From a virus, in the IMG/VR virus record IMGVR_UViG_3300000553_000051, positions 1 to 54,947 of that record: a stretch of 54,947 nt of DNA. One strand, written 5' to 3'. Every line of letters begins with the position of its first letter. Position 1 is the first letter of the stretch. The notes under the pieces are model-generated. The model was given only the letters and a program-made list of their open reading frames with translations, ran no database searches and was not told the origin of the DNA. A program made the position numbers and the translations under genes. Shown piece by piece: positions 5,559 through 54,645 of the stretch.

Positions 5559-5900
5559 ATGAAAATTAGAGCAGGATTTGTATCGAACAGCAGCAGTAGT
5601 TCATTTGTATTACTATTGCCTGAGAACTTTGTAGAAACTATTGATTATGATAAAATCACGAATGGTGATGATGAATTTCCATTGGATGATTTCAAACGAA
5701 TGATTAATGATTTCGTTAAACAAGGTGGAATGTGGAATGAATCAATTTTTGAATATGATGAAGATGATTATGACTTTCCTGATATTTTAGATGATTTGGT
5801 TCGACCATATGTAATTGCTAGTGTAGAATGTGGTTCTGATGATGGTGGTCAGTACGTAGTTGTAAATCGTGAGAAAATAAAAAAATTGTTGAAAAAATGA
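5559..5900 (+). CDS. GFVSNSSSSSF-headed protein 1
   Basis: 113 residues beginning MKIRAGFVSNSSSSSF, then a hydrophobic strand (VLLLP) and a very acidic remainder that ends in EKIKKLLKK. First of seven intact members of an array between 5.5 and 11.5 kb that share only the first 16-17 residues. Serine codons here mix AGC, AGT, TCG and TCA. No function is known to me for this head. It is not a Sec signal because the hydrophobic stretch is too short. Confidence 0.85.
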   Translation: MKIRAGFVSNSSSSSFVLLLPENFVETIDYDKITNGDDEFPLDDFKRMINDFVKQGGMWNESIFEYDEDDYDFPDILDDLVRPYVIASVECGSDDGGQYVVVNREKIKKLLKK

Positions 5901-6036
5901 AAGCTAGATTAGTTTTGTAAGCAATAGTAGCAGTAGTTTATTTGTGTTGTTTGGTATTCCAGTAAATTTAAGTGTCAAATTCATCAAACTAATTGTTTTC
6001 TTTGACGGACGTTATAAAAGAAAAAATCCAACTTGA
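5897..6036 (+). pseudogene. degenerate GFVSNSSSSSF-headed gene
   Basis: An ATG overlapping the preceding TGA opens MKARLVL and stops. Shifting frame gives VSNSSSSLFVLFG, the family head, and about 30 more residues up to TGA at 6034-6036. A small deletion in the head codons and an early end leave a remnant. The last third coincides with a dispersed repeat (5971-6010), which may have replaced the original 3' end. Confidence 0.6.
5971..6010 (+). repeat. dispersed repeat copy 1
   Basis: Contains GTCAAATTCATCAAACTA and GTTTTCTTTGACGGAC. Both blocks recur on the opposite strand at 54830-54884, and the second recurs at 45470-45490. Compared with the 54.8 kb copy it lacks a 17-base stem-loop between the blocks. 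Confidence 0.75.
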
Positions 6037-6062
6037 GATGGAAAAATATAAAATAGAAAAAA

Positions 6063-6275
6063 ATGTGTAAAAGAGAAGGAATATTTTTTAGTGTTATGAT
6101 ACTTTGGCTTTTGATGTTAACGATTGAAATAACGATGTTTAGTAGTTTTGCTAAGGAATATGGTGCAATATTAAATATTGTACCTATTTTGATATTATTG
6201 ATAATAATTATACCTAGATATTTTTCAAGAACTTATAATAATTGGTTAGAATCAGGATTGAATCAAAAAAAATGA
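6063..6275 (+). CDS. small membrane protein with two transmembrane segments
   Basis: 70 residues. Hydrophobic segments at about 9-28 and 34-50, followed by a basic tail. The stop overlaps the next ATG as ATGA. No recognised family. It sits inside the GFVSNSSSSSF gene array but lacks the head. Confidence 0.7.
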   Translation: MCKREGIFFSVMILWLLMLTIEITMFSSFAKEYGAILNIVPILILLIIIIPRYFSRTYNNWLESGLNQKK

Positions 6276-6610
6276 CACAAAAAGAGATAGATCTAATTTT
6301 TAATATTACAATAATTCTTCATGAAGATGAATATTTCAATATTCCTAAACCATGGTTTTCATTATTTCAATTTAATAAATCTCAAAGAAGAGATAGAAAC
6401 GAAACTCAGAAATGGGTAGCAGAACAATTAGCAACTGCTGGAATTTATACAGTTCCTGTAGGAATGAGTTGGGGTGTGTTAACAACTGAAGAATACTACA
6501 AACATAGTAAAAATACATATGCACTCCAGGAACTAAGAGCAAAAAAAATTAAAAAGATTAAATCAAAAAAGTTTGGAATATTCAGAATAAACAAAAAAAT
6601 GATTAAATAA
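6272..6610 (+). CDS. unknown protein with basic KIKKIK tail
   Basis: 112 residues from the ATG at 6272 (overlapping the previous TGA), which is preferred to an in-frame GTG upstream. The middle has several helices and a PVGMSWGVL stretch. The tail LRAKKIKKIKSKKFG is a version of the shared RKxKLxKL ending. Function unknown. Confidence 0.68.
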   Translation: MTQKEIDLIFNITIILHEDEYFNIPKPWFSLFQFNKSQRRDRNETQKWVAEQLATAGIYTVPVGMSWGVLTTEEYYKHSKNTYALQELRAKKIKKIKSKKFGIFRINKKMIK

Positions 6611-6613
6611 TAT

Positions 6614-7138
6614 ATGAAGGTTAGATCAGGATTTGTAAGTAATAGTAGTTCAAGTTCTTTCGTTCTAATTGGACGAAAGTTAACTGATGATGATCTTAAG
6701 TTGGGAATACTTAAAAATGGAAATATGATAAAAGCCGTTGGACATTATTTGGCAGATGGTGCCGATGTTATTGATATTGATAGTCCCGAAAAATTAGGTT
6801 TCGTAAAGGCTGTGAATAAATTAAATCCAGTTTTTACTATCTATGAAGGTTATTTCATGGGTGAAGATTTATCTATTGATGTTGAAAAATTGAAAGATAA
6901 ACTTCCTGAAAGAGGTAAAGTAGGATTTTATTCTATTGAACAAGATTATCATGGTTGTACATGTCTTGAAGATATGTTTAATTCATATTCTAATTATTCT
7001 AATTGTAACACCTGGTATGAGGATAATAATCCAAGTAGAAATGATATTGAACGAGAAATGCAAGTTTTTTTAAGAGCAAAGAAACTTAAAAAACTCAACA
7101 AAAAACAAAAAAATGACTATATAATATATGAAGGTTAG
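6614..7138 (+). CDS. GFVSNSSSSSF-headed protein 2
   Basis: 174 residues starting MKVRSGFVSNSSSSSF, then a strand (VLIG) and a helix (TDDDLKLGILKNG). The C-terminus carries FLR-KKLKKLN, so this protein has both the head module and the RKxKLxKL tail module. It overlaps the next gene of the array by 11 bases. Function unknown. Confidence 0.85.
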   Translation: MKVRSGFVSNSSSSSFVLIGRKLTDDDLKLGILKNGNMIKAVGHYLADGADVIDIDSPEKLGFVKAVNKLNPVFTIYEGYFMGEDLSIDVEKLKDKLPERGKVGFYSIEQDYHGCTCLEDMFNSYSNYSNCNTWYEDNNPSRNDIEREMQVFLRAKKLKKLNKKQKNDYIIYEG

Positions 7139-7544
7139 ATCAGGATTTGTAAGTAATAGTAGTAGTTCATCATTTTTAATACCTATTAATGCATTAACAG
7201 AAAGTCAAATTTTAATGATACAAGATTATATAAATGTGACTGAAAATTGGTGTAAATATCATAAAGAGGATAATTTATATCCTGAAGGTTGGGATATTAC
7301 AGTAAATGAAAAATGTGTTTATGGTTGGACTACGATGGATAATTTTGATATGTCATTTTTTCTTAATGTAATAGTAGGTGTAAATAAATACATACATTGG
7401 GGTGACGATTATACTGATAATAATATTGATTTAGATGCACTTAATCGTGAAATTTTACAAGAAGAAAGAAAAGAAAAATTAGATAATATTGAGAATTACG
7501 GTTACATATTACGAAATAAAATAAATAAAAATTATGAAAATTAG
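7128..7544 (+). CDS. GFVSNSSSSSF-headed protein 3
   Basis: 138 residues starting MKVRSGFVSNSSSSSF, followed by the strand LIPINAL and the helix TESQILMIQDYI. The centre is Trp/Tyr-rich. The C-terminus has EERKEKLDNIENYG, a looser tail motif. Its first bases lie within the end of the preceding gene and its last 11 bases within the next one. Function unknown. Confidence 0.85.
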   Translation: MKVRSGFVSNSSSSSFLIPINALTESQILMIQDYINVTENWCKYHKEDNLYPEGWDITVNEKCVYGWTTMDNFDMSFFLNVIVGVNKYIHWGDDYTDNNIDLDALNREILQEERKEKLDNIENYGYILRNKINKNYEN

Positions 7545-7983
7545 GCAAGGGTTTGTTAGCAACAGTAGTAGCAGTTCATTTGTTGTTATTATGAAAAATG
7601 GAAAAGAAATGACAAAAGAAACTCTTTTAGAGGCTTTTGATGTTAAAAAAACTTCACCTTTGTATGTCTTTGCAAAAGATTTAGCAGATTGGATTATGAA
7701 CAATGTTGAAAAACAAGATATTAAAAGTTTATTTGAGAATTATTGTTATAGGTCAGAAAAATTGACTGAAAATGAAATGATTGATAATATGGTTGAAGAG
7801 TGTTCAGAAAAATATAAGGCTGAAAAAAGAGAAGAATTAGAAAAAATTAGAGATAATGAAATTTTTTATTATGAAGGTAGTGCTGTAAGTGATAGCGGTG
7901 AAGGATTAGAATATTATCTTTGTGAAACAGGTATTAATGTTAACACCGACATTATTACAATAAAATCAGGTGGTGGATATTAA
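7534..7983 (+). CDS. GFVSNSSSSSF-headed protein 4
   Basis: 149 residues starting MKIRQGFVSNSSSSSF, then a strand (VVIM) and a helix (TKETLLEAFDV). The rest is acidic and helical with no family signature. Tandem with members 3 and 5. Function unknown. Confidence 0.85.
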   Translation: MKIRQGFVSNSSSSSFVVIMKNGKEMTKETLLEAFDVKKTSPLYVFAKDLADWIMNNVEKQDIKSLFENYCYRSEKLTENEMIDNMVEECSEKYKAEKREELEKIRDNEIFYYEGSAVSDSGEGLEYYLCETGINVNTDIITIKSGGGY

Positions 7984-8001
7984 TTTAAAAAAACTAATAA
8001 T

Positions 8002-8469
8002 ATGAAAGTAAGGCAAGGATTTGTAAGCAATAGTAGTAGTTCCTCTTTTATCTTAAGAGGTATGAAGTTCACAACGAAAGAACTTATTGCCGCATTGAAG
8101 ATTTCACAAGAAGAAGTGAATGAATGTGGTGAAGAATATGAGATCATGGAATTGATCGATTCGAAACTTTCAGGACCAGGTAAATATGGTAACCTTGAAG
8201 AATTTAGGGCTAAGGTAGAAAATGGTGTTACACTTGAAGAAGAAAAACTTCATTTAGACCTTCATGAAACTGGTAATTTTTTTGGTAGTTCAGATTATGA
8301 TAATCTTATTGTCGGTAAGTATATGGGAGATTTTGAAGATGGAGAAGTAACTGAAATTGGTGGTAATGAAGGCTGGATTGATGAATATGTCACCAGACAA
8401 CTTGCTAAAATTGGTTTATCAGGTACGATGAAGACTTATGTACAAATGGTTTCAAACGATAATTATTAA
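8002..8469 (+). CDS. GFVSNSSSSSF-headed protein 5
   Basis: 155 residues starting MKVRQGFVSNSSSSSF, followed by ILRGMKFTTKELIAALKI, the same strand-then-helix pattern as in members 2-4. This suggests that the conserved head is the first strand of a small domain and not just a leader. Acidic C-terminal two thirds. It lies directly before the IMP dehydrogenase/GMP reductase-like gene (3-base gap). Confidence 0.85.
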   Translation: MKVRQGFVSNSSSSSFILRGMKFTTKELIAALKISQEEVNECGEEYEIMELIDSKLSGPGKYGNLEEFRAKVENGVTLEEEKLHLDLHETGNFFGSSDYDNLIVGKYMGDFEDGEVTEIGGNEGWIDEYVTRQLAKIGLSGTMKTYVQMVSNDNY

Positions 8470-8472
8470 AAA

Positions 8473-9414
8473 ATGATAAATAAATTTGATTACGATGATA
8501 TCAATTTAATTCCTCGTTATAGTACGGTTGATAGTAGAAGTGAGTGTGATACAAGTGTACAACTTGGTAAATTCAGATTCAAAAATCCTGTCATTCCTGC
8601 TAATATGGAATCTGTTATGAATGAAGAATTAGCCATGAAATTAGCAAAGAGTGGCTATTTCTATGTCATGCACAGATTTGGTACTGATAATAAACAATTT
8701 ATTATCAATATGAAAAAAGAAAAATTGGTGACATCAATATCACTTGGTGTTAATCAAGATTCTTATGCTCTATTAAAAGAATTGGTCGAAGAAAAATTAG
8801 TACCAGATTATATCACAATTGATATTGCGCATGGACATTGTAAAAAAATGAAAAAAATCTTACAATTCATAAAAGGAAATTCAATAGATAGTTTTATCAT
8901 TGCTGGTAATGTTTCCAGCATCGAAGCAACTGAAGATTTAGATAATTGGGGTGCTGATGCAATTAAAGTGGGGATTGGATCTGGGTCGGTTTGTACGACA
9001 TATCCAACAACAGGTTTCGGAAGTAAAAATATACAAGCATCTATTGTAAATGAATGTACCAGTGTAACCAAAAAATCCATTATTGCTGATGGTGGCATTA
9101 AATCACCAGCAGATATAACAAAATCAATTGTTCTTGGTGCATCTATGGTCATGGTTGGTGGATTAATGTCAGCATTTCTAGATTCACCAGGTAGAATTGT
9201 TGAAATTGATGATGTTAAATATAAAGAATTTTATGGCTCTGCATCATCAAGACAAGGAAATATCAATAGAATTGAAGGAACTGTAAAATTGAATAAATTG
9301 AAAAATGTAACTAATGTTGAATATTTAGATTATTTGACTGAATGTTTACAATCAGCAATTAGTTATGGTGGTGGAAAAAAATTAGAAGATTTATATTCAG
9401 TAAGGTGGATTTAA
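8473..9414 (+). CDS. IMP dehydrogenase/GMP reductase family enzyme
   Basis: 313 residues, a TIM barrel of the IMPDH/GMPR family: FDYDDINLIP at the start, PVIPANMESV, then the flexible loop IGSGSVCTTYPTTGFG whose Cys at about residue 174 would form the covalent adduct with the purine nucleotide, and IIADGGIKS. No CBS domains, and shorter than typical IMPDH (about 490) or GMPR (about 345). GMPR-like activity (GMP to IMP, NADPH) or IMPDH-like activity is possible; the loop does not decide. It would change guanine nucleotide supply during infection. It sits inside the SNSSSSSF array, 3 and 1 bases from its neighbours. Confidence 0.88.
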   Translation: MINKFDYDDINLIPRYSTVDSRSECDTSVQLGKFRFKNPVIPANMESVMNEELAMKLAKSGYFYVMHRFGTDNKQFIINMKKEKLVTSISLGVNQDSYALLKELVEEKLVPDYITIDIAHGHCKKMKKILQFIKGNSIDSFIIAGNVSSIEATEDLDNWGADAIKVGIGSGSVCTTYPTTGFGSKNIQASIVNECTSVTKKSIIADGGIKSPADITKSIVLGASMVMVGGLMSAFLDSPGRIVEIDDVKYKEFYGSASSRQGNINRIEGTVKLNKLKNVTNVEYLDYLTECLQSAISYGGGKKLEDLYSVRWI

Positions 9415-9415
9415 T

Positions 9416-10063
9416 ATGAAATTTAGAGATGGTTTTGTAAGTAATAGTAGTTCTAGCAGTTTCATTATATCAATGGAGCATTTTTCTACGATTAAGGACC
9501 TTGCTACTTATATGATTCAACAACAAATGGATGATAGTGATGATAGTGATGATCCATCATGGCATGATAAATATATAGAACAGAATAAGTTATACATTGA
9601 AAGATTAAGAAAACTTGATGAAAATCAAGCTGTTAGTTTTCCAAGTTGTAATTATGATACTTATATAAAGAAAATAGGTGATATTTATTTAGTTTCAACT
9701 TGTAATAATACTGATTGGAATTTATGGAAATATTCAACCAATAAACTTTCAAAAATTACAAGAGAGGAATTAGAAAAAATTCAAAAAACATATTCTGAAA
9801 ATGATGAAAATTATAGAGATATTAGTTATATTTTAGATAATGGTGACTATTTATTATTTGGTAATGATTATTATAATTTATATAAAGATATAATTGGTGT
9901 TGAAACTTATGAAGATTGTCCTAAAAGGGATAACGTTAATTATGAACATGATCATTATTTGTGGAATACACCAAAATACGGTAAAATTTGTCCTAAATGT
10001 CATCCTTATTATCAAAGAAAAGATAAGTTAGATATTATAAATCAAATATCAAAGGAGGAATAA
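9416..10063 (+). CDS. GFVSNSSSSSF-headed protein 6 with zinc-binding end
   Basis: 215 residues starting MKFRDGFVSNSSSSSF, then IISMEHFSTIKDLATYMI (strand, helix). It has a DDSDDSDD run at about residues 40-47. The C-terminal part has CPKRD...HDHY...CPKCHPYYQRKDKLDIIN, a likely zinc site followed by the RKxKLxxI tail. It follows the IMPDH-like gene by one base. Function unknown. Confidence 0.85.
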   Translation: MKFRDGFVSNSSSSSFIISMEHFSTIKDLATYMIQQQMDDSDDSDDPSWHDKYIEQNKLYIERLRKLDENQAVSFPSCNYDTYIKKIGDIYLVSTCNNTDWNLWKYSTNKLSKITREELEKIQKTYSENDENYRDISYILDNGDYLLFGNDYYNLYKDIIGVETYEDCPKRDNVNYEHDHYLWNTPKYGKICPKCHPYYQRKDKLDIINQISKEE

Positions 10064-10065
10064 AT

Positions 10066-10263
10066 ATGAAACCAAGATCACTGGAAGATGTAGCTATCGA
10101 ATTAATGGAACAATCCAGAATTGAACAACTAAAAACACTTAGAAAAACTAAAATTGATTATGATTCCTTGCTAAAGGTTGTACCACTAGAAGAAATAGAA
10201 AAATATTTGAGAAAAAAGAAATTACAAAATATTCAAAAATTTACAGTTCATGGAATTTTATAA
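10066..10263 (+). CDS. small basic protein with RKKKLQNI tail
   Basis: 65 residues, helical, with LRKTKIDY in the middle and LRKKKLQNIQKF near the end. The ATG is preceded by an AGGAGG Shine-Dalgarno sequence (about 10054-10059), unusually strong for this genome. It overlaps the next gene by 14 bases. Function unknown. Confidence 0.7.
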   Translation: MKPRSLEDVAIELMEQSRIEQLKTLRKTKIDYDSLLKVVPLEEIEKYLRKKKLQNIQKFTVHGIL

Positions 10264-10813
10264 TAACTATATTAGTCAATTAACGAAACAATATAATGCA
10301 GAAATTGCTTTTCTTTCAAATGATATTCTTATAAATGAAGTTTTTTTCTTGGATTTTGTTGATCAATATCATAAACAAAGAGGGTTTTATCGTGACCAGT
10401 TTGGTTATTTAAAATCTTTATTTTGGGAAGCAAGGAAATCTTATGTAGATGTTAATAAATTTGCTTTTGAAAAAACAGATTTAATCACATCTATGAATCA
10501 TAATAAACAATTTCATACTTATATTCAAGTAATTAATGATATACAAAATCCACAATTGAATGGTCAATTTATGATTTTTAAATTTGGATTTACAATTTAT
10601 AGTAAAATTACAGACAATATGCCTGATATTTACGATAATACATTTATGATTAAGATTAATTTAAAGCATACTATGATTGGACTACTTAATAATTACGACA
10701 ATTCGCACATGTTAGAAAAGCATTATATACAACCATTACCAGAATTAGCACCATTAAATTCTATTATTCATTTTCCTAATTTCAATTTATTATCAATCAA
10801 AAAGAAAAGTTAG
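10250..10813 (+). CDS. unknown phage protein
   Basis: 187 residues with no recognisable motif, rich in aromatic residues and Asn. The last gene of the run before a new TAnnTTTG promoter. No signal peptide or zinc site. Function unknown. Confidence 0.75.
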   Translation: MEFYNNYISQLTKQYNAEIAFLSNDILINEVFFLDFVDQYHKQRGFYRDQFGYLKSLFWEARKSYVDVNKFAFEKTDLITSMNHNKQFHTYIQVINDIQNPQLNGQFMIFKFGFTIYSKITDNMPDIYDNTFMIKINLKHTMIGLLNNYDNSHMLEKHYIQPLPELAPLNSIIHFPNFNLLSIKKKS

Positions 10814-10854
10814 AAAAAATTCAAAAATCACTTTTTTTAACCTAAAGTTTTAAT

Positions 10855-10862
10855 TATATTTG
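10855..10862 (+). promoter_or_regulatory. Bacteroidota-type promoter (TATATTTG)
   Basis: TAnnTTTG box preceded by a T-run, between two gene units. It drives the small frame at 10888 and/or member 7 of the SNSSSSSF array. Confidence 0.55.
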
Positions 10863-10887
10863 TAGTTGATAAAAAAATTATGAAAAG

Positions 10888-10986
10888 TTGTTTGTAAATT
10901 GGTACGGCAAAAAGATATGTGGAGAATCTGAAATAGAAAAAATTATTACAATGCCATCACCAAGATGGGATTATTTGATTGTTTAA
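10888..10986 (+). CDS. possible 32-residue protein or gene remnant
   Basis: A TTG-started frame of 33 codons (FVNWYGKKICGESEIEKI in its first part) lies 25 bases after a promoter box. An ATG at 10880 in another frame stops after five codons, so this may be a frameshifted remnant. Coding character is suggested only by composition. Confidence 0.3.
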   Translation: MFVNWYGKKICGESEIEKIITMPSPRWDYLIV

Positions 10987-10996
10987 AATATAAAAA

Positions 10997-11542
10997 ATGA
11001 AGATAAGACAAGGATTTGTGAGTAACTCATCATCAAGTAGTTTTGTGGTTATTTTTCCAAAAGAACCTAATGATGTTATTGATGTTAAGAATATGCTTTT
11101 TAGTAAAGGTGAAACATTTTATTCAAATCCATATCAATATGGTGATAATGAATATGGTTGGTCTACAGATGAAGTTGCTGAAACAATATGGAATGATATT
11201 TCTAAACAAGAAAAGAATAATTTCAAAAGAGCAGAAGAGATAATAACTTCAGGTACATCTTATGAAGATGGCGCACCTGACTGGAATGATTATGGTCACA
11301 TTAAAGATTGGACTCTTAAAACAACTGCATATTATGCTGCGCAGGAAAAATTTGCGAAAAAGAAATTGAAAGAATTTTTTAATTTAAGAAAACTTAAACT
11401 TCAAAAGATTAATAATCAAAAAGTTGACGACATTATTCTTTATTGTTTTGAATATTCTGATAATGATGGTTCATATTTTACAGCACTAGAACACGGTGAT
11501 TTATTTAAAAATTTAAAACATATAAAAATTAACAATCATTAA
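10997..11542 (+). CDS. GFVSNSSSSSF-headed protein 7
   Basis: 181 residues starting MKIRQGFVSNSSSSSF. The serines are coded mainly by TCA here, against AGT/AGC in most members, so the peptide and not the DNA is conserved. Then VVIFPKEPNDVIDVKNMLF. The region around residues 120-135 has FFNLRKLKLQKINNQK, the basic module, with a further 45 residues after it. Last member of the array. Function unknown. Confidence 0.85.
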   Translation: MKIRQGFVSNSSSSSFVVIFPKEPNDVIDVKNMLFSKGETFYSNPYQYGDNEYGWSTDEVAETIWNDISKQEKNNFKRAEEIITSGTSYEDGAPDWNDYGHIKDWTLKTTAYYAAQEKFAKKKLKEFFNLRKLKLQKINNQKVDDIILYCFEYSDNDGSYFTALEHGDLFKNLKHIKINNH

Positions 11543-12593: not shown

Positions 12594-13037
12594 ATGAAAA
12601 TGGAAGATATTATCAATCAAGATATTAAAAATGCTATGATTGAAAAAAATGAAGAAAAATTAAATGCTATCCGTACTATTAAATCTGCTATACAGAATGA
12701 AAAAGCAAAGGATGGTAAAGAAGTTTCTGATGAAGGTATTATTAAAATTATTCAAAAACTTGTTAGCCAACGAACAGAATCTGCTATGCAATATGCTGAA
12801 GGTGAAAGACAAGATTTAGTTCTTCAGGAAGAAACACTTATTAAGATTTTCAAAACTTATCTTCCTACACAATTAACAGAAGATGAAGTCACCATTAAAA
12901 TTAAAGAATTTATTTTAATTACTAATGCATCTTCAATTCGTGATATGGGTAAAGTTATGGCTTTAGCAAATAAAGAATTTGTTGGAAAAGCAGATATGAA
13001 ACAAGTTGGTTCTATTGTGAAAACCTTATTAACATAA
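12594..13037 (+). CDS. YqeY/GatB-tail family protein
   Basis: 147 residues, nearly the full length of the YqeY family: INQDIKNAMIEKNEEKLNAI, then LSAIRxxKSAI-like NAIRTIKSAIQNE, and the C-terminal DMGKVMALANKEFVGKADM motif. The family is related to the helical tail of GatB, which in the tRNA-dependent amidotransferase contacts Glu-tRNA-Gln or Asp-tRNA-Asn. A role in tRNA or aminoacyl-tRNA handling would fit the nearby tRNA cluster, but this is inference. Starts at 12594 (or at the ATG two codons later). Confidence 0.85.
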   Translation: MKMEDIINQDIKNAMIEKNEEKLNAIRTIKSAIQNEKAKDGKEVSDEGIIKIIQKLVSQRTESAMQYAEGERQDLVLQEETLIKIFKTYLPTQLTEDEVTIKIKEFILITNASSIRDMGKVMALANKEFVGKADMKQVGSIVKTLLT

Positions 13038-15656: not shown

Positions 15657-15742
15657 GCTCGATTCGGCTAGCGGTCCAGGCTCCCAGAATTTCAATCTGG
15701 CGTGGAGTAATCCACTCAGGGGTTCGAATCCCCTATCGAGTA
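15657..15742 (+). tRNA. tRNA-Glu(TTC) with an expanded variable arm
   Basis: Acceptor GCTCGAT/ATCGAGT (G1:U72), Glu-like D-arm (TTCGGCTAGCGGTCCAGG), perfect anticodon stem CCAGA/TCTGG with loop ATTTCAA, T-arm AGGGG-TTCGAAT-CCCCT. The variable region is 17 bases and forms GTGGA-GTAA-TCCAC, a class-II-like arm capped by a GNRA loop. Glu tRNAs are normally class I with a 4-5 base variable loop. Confidence 0.75.
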
Positions 15743-53694: not shown

Positions 53695-54645
53695 TTATTC
53701 ATCAATCTCAAAAAAATCAGATGCATCATCTTTCTCACCGAATGTTGATTCATTATCTGATTCATTTGAATCAGATAAAGTGTTATCCGAAGATGCCCTA
53801 TTAATTTGTCTTTCGGACATATTAATATCATTTCCAACAAGAACTTCAAGTACTTGTGTGACTTTGTACTTATCTTCTGCTGTCCATTCTTTTGCAATAT
53901 GATCTTCTAGATTTACAGTGCGTTCCATTAAGAAACTTGTGATTTTCTCCTTAACTTTAGGATTTGTGATTTTATTTTTTCCGGTTTTTTCATCTACTTC
54001 AACAGGTGCTTTTTTACCCTGAATTTTAATAGGTGAAGCTGTTAAGAAAAGGCTTGAATCATAGTTTGGAAATTCACCAAGTTGTTTAATAACGAGATTA
54101 AAATCCTTCCCGTTTGCAAGATCAAAGATATTACATGCTGATTTATCTGCATTTATACCATCTTTTTCATTTTTGATCTTTTCTTTGATTTTGTAACCAT
54201 AAGGATAAATCATAATTTTGCCTTCTAAATCACGATTCTGTTCATCTTCCATAACGAGAATATATGAGTAATATTTAGTGCTGCGTCCAATTAATTCTGC
54301 CTTTTCAACATCGGATGCATTTTTTGAGTTTTTTAATTTCCAATACATTGTGCAAAGATCACATTTATCAACAAAATTCTTCATACAATCGTAGTATCCC
54401 ATCAATTCAGGATGGTTCTTAAAATCGACATAGTGTTGATGTTTTTCAATAGCTGATTGTAATACTTTTCCTTCTTTGGATAAATTAGGTAAAAATCTGA
54501 TTGTAGCTGTATAACCTTTTTTCTTGTCGGTTATTTTTGGACGGTAGATACCATCAAGGCTACTGCCTTTTTTTTCTAGAAAATCTAGTGTTTCACTTTT
54601 TGCGTCGATACTATCAAAAATATCAACATTTTCAATTTCTTTCAT
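53695..54645 (-). CDS. gp32-like single-stranded DNA-binding protein
   Basis: 316 residues against 301 in T4 gp32. HPELMGYYDCMKNFVDKCDL with the following C gives His78, Cys87, Cys95 and Cys98, the zinc-stabilised subdomain. Aromatic/basic OB-fold segments before and after (TATIRFLPNL, YYSYILVMEDEQN, KIMIYPYGYKIKE). The last 35 residues are Ser/Asp/Glu-rich (SDSNESDNESTFGEKDDASD), the acidic tail that recruits replication and recombination partners. It coats ssDNA in replication, recombination and repair. Core gene that ties this phage to the T4-like lineage. Confidence 0.85.
   Translation of the reverse strand: MKEIENVDIFDSIDAKSETLDFLEKKGSSLDGIYRPKITDKKKGYTATIRFLPNLSKEGKVLQSAIEKHQHYVDFKNHPELMGYYDCMKNFVDKCDLCTMYWKLKNSKNASDVEKAELIGRSTKYYSYILVMEDEQNRDLEGKIMIYPYGYKIKEKIKNEKDGINADKSACNIFDLANGKDFNLVIKQLGEFPNYDSSLFLTASPIKIQGKKAPVEVDEKTGKNKITNPKVKEKITSFLMERTVNLEDHIAKEWTAEDKYKVTQVLEVLVGNDINMSERQINRASSDNTLSDSNESDNESTFGEKDDASDFFEIDE

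Follow-up and report, generated by a model that had tools for sequence, protein, structure and literature searches.

A common N-terminal head on unrelated phage proteins accompanies a radical SAM enzyme and is probably its substrate tag

The phage contig IMGVR_UViG_3300000553_000051, a record of 54,947 bases that will be referred to at its full length as the window, contains an array of seven intact genes and one relic with a common head of 16 residues, MK(I/V/F)RxGFVSNSSSSSF, followed by tails of seven different families. Comparison of head-bearing loci provides good support for the link that in phages, archaea and bacteria this head is usually accompanied by one radical S-adenosylmethionine (SAM) enzyme. 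Based on these sequence comparisons, we propose that the head is probably the shared N-terminal substrate tag of this dedicated enzyme, which appears to be of the SPASM/twitch type.

Linkage of the head to a radical SAM enzyme

Clustering of the non-head proteins from 81 non-redundant head loci revealed one dominating family, a radical SAM protein of approximately 345 residues. By profile search the enzyme was detected within the fetched stretch of 55 of the 81 loci, and elsewhere in eight further whole contigs including that of RB43. A blast-based companion count (59/81) contained some spurious members, and the profile count was preferred. The reverse test started from the enzyme profile alone, which selected 80 viral loci. 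Strict heads were present in 71 of them, amounting to 281 heads, and the reversed motif used as control yielded none. Five of the remaining nine loci carried variant heads, namely MKIRLGFVANSSSSDF, MKIRNGFVSNSSSQSF, a head with one extra residue, MKIRASFVSNSSSTSF and, four times in one phage, MK(I/V/T)RQSFVANSSSSSF. All head-enzyme pairs were co-oriented (306/306), and in 23 of 74 loci the nearest head was located less than 100 base pairs from the enzyme.

The same pairing was observed outside these loci. On the Agrobacterium plasmid pAt2, an enzyme with 32% identity is encoded with a variant head gene directly upstream, and in the Spirochaetota only two out of 247 genomes contain the enzyme, both with an adjoining head gene. 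Among cultured phages, 172 records contain the enzyme and 172 a head protein of the type encoded at position 10997 of the window, with nearly the same host genera. A third family common to the head loci was not found, and the genes have no accompanying protease or exporter family; consequently, a third component (a protein with a recognition element (RRE), a protease or a transporter) was rejected. In terms of gene content, comparative genomics thus shows tag and enzyme to be a two-family system, kept together in large phages, in some archaea and bacteria and on plasmids. Searching the literature for this motif and for a radical SAM enzyme-substrate system in phages yielded no description of the tag-enzyme link. 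The original prediction, made from the window alone, had rightly seen a candidate for an undescribed system with a peptide-level head on variable cargo; the radical SAM partner could not be seen, because the enzyme is not encoded in the window.

The head collection comprises 424 genes from 113 genome groups. Heads were found in 106 IMG/VR candidates with up to 13 per contig, in large phages, RB43-type T4-like phages and Vibrio phage D479, as well as in contigs of Asgard archaea, spirochaetes, Verrucomicrobia, Fibrimonadales and others; the head on the Agrobacterium plasmid is a variant. A tblastn search with the bare head gave no match, for which the low-complexity filter is probably the cause. 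One Heimdallarchaeota contig (L085:412-3091) carries five tandem head genes of a single tail family, followed by a radical SAM gene.

The head array in the window

The head genes of the window and the relic are arranged as follows.

5559-5900, plus strand: head gene 1, 113 residues; head at bases 5559-5606; tail family 5 (19 members)
5897-5950, plus strand: relic of a head gene; the frame of the start codon differs from that of the head (frameshift), and a short open tail follows the head
6614-7138, plus strand: head gene 2, 174 residues; head at bases 6614-6661; tail family 19
7128-7544, plus strand: head gene 3, 138 residues; overlaps gene 2; tail family 3 (33 members)
7534-7983, plus strand: head gene 4, 149 residues; overlaps gene 3; tail family 4 (23 members); AlphaFold2 model m94e37cd7264f
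8002-8469, plus strand: head gene 5, 155 residues; tail family 15
9416-10063, plus strand: head gene 6, 215 residues; tail family 7 (12 members)
10997-11542, plus strand: head gene 7, 181 residues; full-length phrog_7397 member with RB43-type homologues; tail family 2 (35 members); AlphaFold2 model m47a5cbdac1e4

Seven intact genes and one wreck sharing a head, as originally described, were confirmed (starts of the open reading frames (ORFs) at 5559, 6614, 7128, 7534, 8002, 9416 and 10997; relic at 5897). Within the head, 14 of the 16 residues are identical in all seven genes. A degenerate DNA pattern for GFVSNSSS matched seven times in the record, and the same pattern reversed did not match at all. 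The relic reads ATG AAA GCT AG.. and continues in another frame with ..ISFVSNSSSSLFVLFG. Over residues 1-180, the 10997 protein matches phrog_7397 (E 5e-16); the other six head proteins match this family solely via residues 1-19 to 1-30. Five of the seven tail families, together with a relative of the reductase encoded inside the array, recur in related phages with the order largely kept.

Conservation of the head as a peptide

Each of the six serine positions shows a mixture of AGY and TCN codons, in the seven genes of the window as well as across 423 heads elsewhere, and there are 418 distinct sequences among the 423 head 48-mers of the fetched loci. Since the two codon types are used interchangeably and nearly all 48-mers differ, selection acts on the head peptide. 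The head is kept as a peptide and not as DNA, in agreement with what had been deduced from the window, and the possibility of an RNA or DNA element was rejected as the codons vary. The serine run of 10997, previously given as all TCA, reads TCA TCA TCA AGT AGT. The first fetched set of 278 unique heads was obtained by a search without start-codon requirement; ATG, GTG or TTG is located exactly five residues ahead of position 6 in 277 of them and CTG in the remaining one.

In all 424 heads N10, S11 and S12 are invariant, though the search pattern permitted other residues, and K2, R4, F7, S9, S15 and F/Y16 are nearly so. Heads within one genome are more alike than label shuffling gives, even between unrelated tails. 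One phage (L171:12051-13928) carries four heads, all of the deviant form MK(I/V/T)RQSFVANSSSSSF, which gives the impression that heads of the same genome change in concert. The glycyl-radical motif, R-V-x-G-[FYW], was rejected as identity of the head, which has R-x-G-F and a different spacing.

Identity of the enzyme

In an alignment of 40 enzymes the cysteines C52, C56 and C59, forming a CxxxCxxC motif, are invariant. Two members reach 36.2 and 33.0 bits with PF04055 (cut-off 29.5) and the others stay below the cut-off, while PF13186 (SPASM) reaches 23.9 bits (cut-off 21.5) in the reference member L012 and stays below it for the others. Judged by these features, the enzyme is a radical SAM protein. 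With repeat-protein matches left out, the best profile matches among solved structures were 5v1q (E 1.7e-10), which we take to be SuiB, and SkfB 6efn (E 2.5e-8), both of which modify peptides; viperin was also among the matches (E 2.6e-4). Direct matches to viperin profiles were weak at 15-28 bits, with E 3e-7 for one member and approximately 2e-3 for two others. None of the curated NCBIfam families reached its cut-off for the enzyme, the best being TIGR04317 with 39.7 bits versus 380, and the enzymes match phrog_7293 over the full length. The enzyme itself does not carry a head. All SPASM enzymes known when PMC5491770 was written are stated there to modify proteins or peptides.

In the deposited RB43 genome (G015) the radical SAM gene appears split at approximately 92.8-93.8 kb. 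Passages of PMC9960720 describe a split gene in phage Kpn35c1 as well and name no substrate.

Tails and predicted structures

The tails fall into 30 families with at least two members and 58 singletons. Only three out of 210 profile-profile comparisons between the 21 tail families with at least three members exceeded a probability of 70. Searches of Pfam, NCBIfam and PADLOC revealed no domain for the tails of the window, and among 138 diverse tails searched, one matched Pfam (DUF4325), three phrog_132 and one phrog_7397. Conserved residues are found at the C-terminal end of some tail families (GGGY, NDNY, YNG, SHH), and some tails with zinc-finger-like CxVCG starts carry the same head. RB43-type phages encode a second head protein (L081:13923-14387), whose tail matches phrog_132, 'head-tail adaptor' (E 3.5e-8), and represents the sole tail family with a named relative.

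The head proteins have a median length of 133 residues and are predicted to contain folded domains. Structure prediction had been proposed for all seven proteins of the window; two were modelled with AlphaFold2, and both show a disordered head before a confident fold. Mean pLDDT (predicted local distance difference test) was 87.0 for 10997 and 82.6 for 7534, with mean confidences of 50 and 39, respectively, for residues 1-10. The first strand starts at residue 13-14 in both models, placing N10-S11-S12 at the edge of the folded part. As the alignments were shallow (35 and 22 rows), these disordered heads are moderate evidence. The head is accordingly predicted to be a flexible N-terminal extension ahead of a folded domain, as expected of a tag accessible to an enzyme. 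The earlier idea that the head opens a small domain anchoring the cargo seems not to hold, given the low confidence of residues 1-10 and the position of the first strand. Complete divergence of the tails, also put forward originally, stands at the level of sequence, although both models follow the order strand-helix-(helices)-strand-helix-strand. Some tails may therefore be remote relatives by fold. Foldseek searches of the PDB with the 10997 model and of BFVD with both models gave no match with E below 0.001; in the absence of a confident relative, the fold yields no function.

Proposed mechanism and alternative explanations

We infer that the head is the recognition site of the enzyme, and it is probably the site of modification as well: the invariant residues belong to the head and no target residue recurs among the tails, which makes the head the most likely modified site. 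Starting from tag genes and enzyme as the two-family system indicated by comparative genomics, the flexible N-terminus of each tagged protein would enter the enzyme, which would read K2, R4, F7 and N10-S11-S12 and use the 5'-deoxyadenosyl radical to modify a residue of the invariant N-S-S core or one next to it. Candidate chemistries are an oxidation or epimerisation within N-S-S, or a side-chain crosslink, for example involving F7. More tentatively, one modified N-terminus might then serve many folded cargo domains as reactive group, binding handle or cap. The cargo perhaps consists of small host-takeover or counter-defence proteins; that the domains are small, diverse and clustered hints at early-acting effectors. 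The array in the window would represent the substrate side, with the enzyme expected elsewhere in the same phage genome. More generally, a phage radical SAM enzyme might put one chemical group on the heads of as many as 13 folded, mutually unrelated proteins in each genome, creating a 'modified head' that is genetically encoded and transferable. Phages, archaea, bacteria and plasmids would use it as a shared reactive or binding element on diverse effectors, a proposal whose chances we consider evenly balanced.

Several observations weigh against a dedicated enzyme acting on the head. The co-occurrence in cultured phages stems from mutually related phages, head-bearing contigs of 261, 219 and 250 kb, which may be incomplete, show no enzyme, and in RB16 enzyme and heads are approximately 20 kb apart. 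After the core, only C266, C284 and C333 of the enzyme are invariant and C241 nearly so (L012 numbering), fewer than the seven conserved cysteines of the SPASM domain in full enzymes (PMC5491770); its C-terminal region is thus better termed twitch-like than full SPASM. Furthermore, a profile search of the window detected no copy of the enzyme. In the closest relatives it precedes the first head gene by 2-6 kb, and in the related contig L039 it sits between homologues of the window genes 3107 and 3544. These two genes are adjacent in the window with no enzyme between them, so the enzyme is not at the L039-type site, and the window phage must encode it elsewhere in its genome or have lost it. 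The window is a 55-kb fragment, with related contigs reaching 141 and 330 kb, and the seven perfect heads suggest continued selection, for which reason the enzyme is expected outside the contig.

Alternatively, the system might follow the logic of ribosomally synthesized and post-translationally modified peptides (RiPPs), with the head merely a leader docking the radical SAM enzyme and the modification placed further on in the tail, possibly close to the conserved C-termini of some tail families. SPASM enzymes are often leader-dependent, and the KW cyclase requires an eight-residue leader (PMC5491770). However, the tails, which are predicted folded domains in proteins with a median of 133 residues, have neither a target residue nor a family in common, and the residues that are most invariant in the whole protein lie in the head. 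The short precursor with leader, cleaved core, protease and exporter known from RaS-RiPPs is not matched, as no protease or exporter family lies beside the genes. We consider this explanation unlikely.

A short N-terminal tag on unrelated phage proteins also looks like a signal for sorting, such as one for entry into the capsid, and the enzyme would then be an unrelated neighbour or further cargo. The internal proteins of T4 carry such an N-terminal capsid-targeting sequence with a prohead-protease site, (L/I)xE. The head consensus, however, contains no conserved (L/I)xE, the tag is not confined to phages, being found beside the radical SAM enzyme in archaeal, bacterial and plasmid loci as well, the enzyme lacks a head, and the reciprocal linkage is too tight for a mere neighbour, all of which makes sorting quite improbable. 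Even less credence is given to an enzyme that makes a small molecule such as a viperin-like nucleotide analogue, with unmodified head proteins binding the product or the enzyme. Prokaryotic viperins share the radical SAM core and are found in phage-host conflict, three members of the enzyme family match them weakly (E 3e-7 for one, approximately 2e-3 for two), and nucleotide enzymes occur in some arrays; nevertheless, the SuiB and SkfB matches are far stronger than that to viperin, and the enzyme family has tagged partner proteins and, in its reference member, a SPASM-type C-terminal match, a region that viperins to our knowledge lack. Least probable is a single, very divergent but structurally conserved domain superfamily with the head as first strand and the enzyme link as common inheritance: two families without detectable tail similarity do show the same predicted order of elements (strand, helix, helices, strand, helix, C-terminal strand), but residues 1-10 lie outside the predicted fold, CxVCG zinc-finger-like tails follow the same head, a structural strand would not demand an invariant N-S-S, and the link persists across phages, archaea and plasmids.

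Relation to known systems

The enzyme of the proposed tag system resembles the SPASM/twitch maturases (SuiB/KW cyclase, SkfB, PqqE, anSME, EpeE) in its CxxxCxxC core and putative C-terminal auxiliary-cluster region, as well as in being encoded with its presumed substrates, as reflected by the reciprocal linkage. In contrast to these maturases, it accompanies arrays encoding as many as 13 folded proteins that have unrelated tails and only the N-terminal tag in common, it is mostly phage-borne, no protease or transporter is found, and no curated NCBIfam family fits. In PHROG, the families matched here over the full length, phrog_7397 (head protein) and phrog_7293 (enzyme), are both annotated as 'unknown function', and the entries as shown state neither that the head is shared by many families nor that it is linked to the enzyme. 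Tag and enzyme, which are present in the laboratory phages RB16, RB43, Lw1 and KP15, are hence paired with each other and acquire a probable biochemical class together with a chemistry that can be tested. If the head is modified, one radical enzyme would treat a whole set of unrelated phage proteins, for which we know of no precedent, and the 16-residue head would be a candidate tag for enzymatic protein modification. The link also provides an entry point to hundreds of phage proteins regarded as hypothetical.

Neighbouring genes

One further gene lies inside the array and is listed as context, its membership of the system not being claimed.

8473-9414, plus strand: GMP reductase (NF003966, 380.9 bits versus a cut-off of 344)

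The purine-metabolism enzyme noticed in the original prediction is thus identified, and genes of the GMP reductase/IMPDH family are located inside the same head array in several related phages (27-35% identity). As a general partner of the heads it was rejected, because the family occurs in 9 of the 81 head loci versus 55 for the radical SAM enzyme.

The ORFs at 10250-10813 and 53695-54645 (minus strand) both match one ORF of L039 (7907-8527, approximately 30% identity) and are possibly paralogues; the former also matches phrog_224, a single-strand DNA binding protein (E 1.7e-6). By eye, the ORF at 12594-13037 resembles YqeY/GatB-domain proteins. Finally, 13 tRNA genes were predicted on the plus strand between positions 15657 and 22515 of the window, some of them atypical (for example Ile with anticodon aat and three Gln genes).

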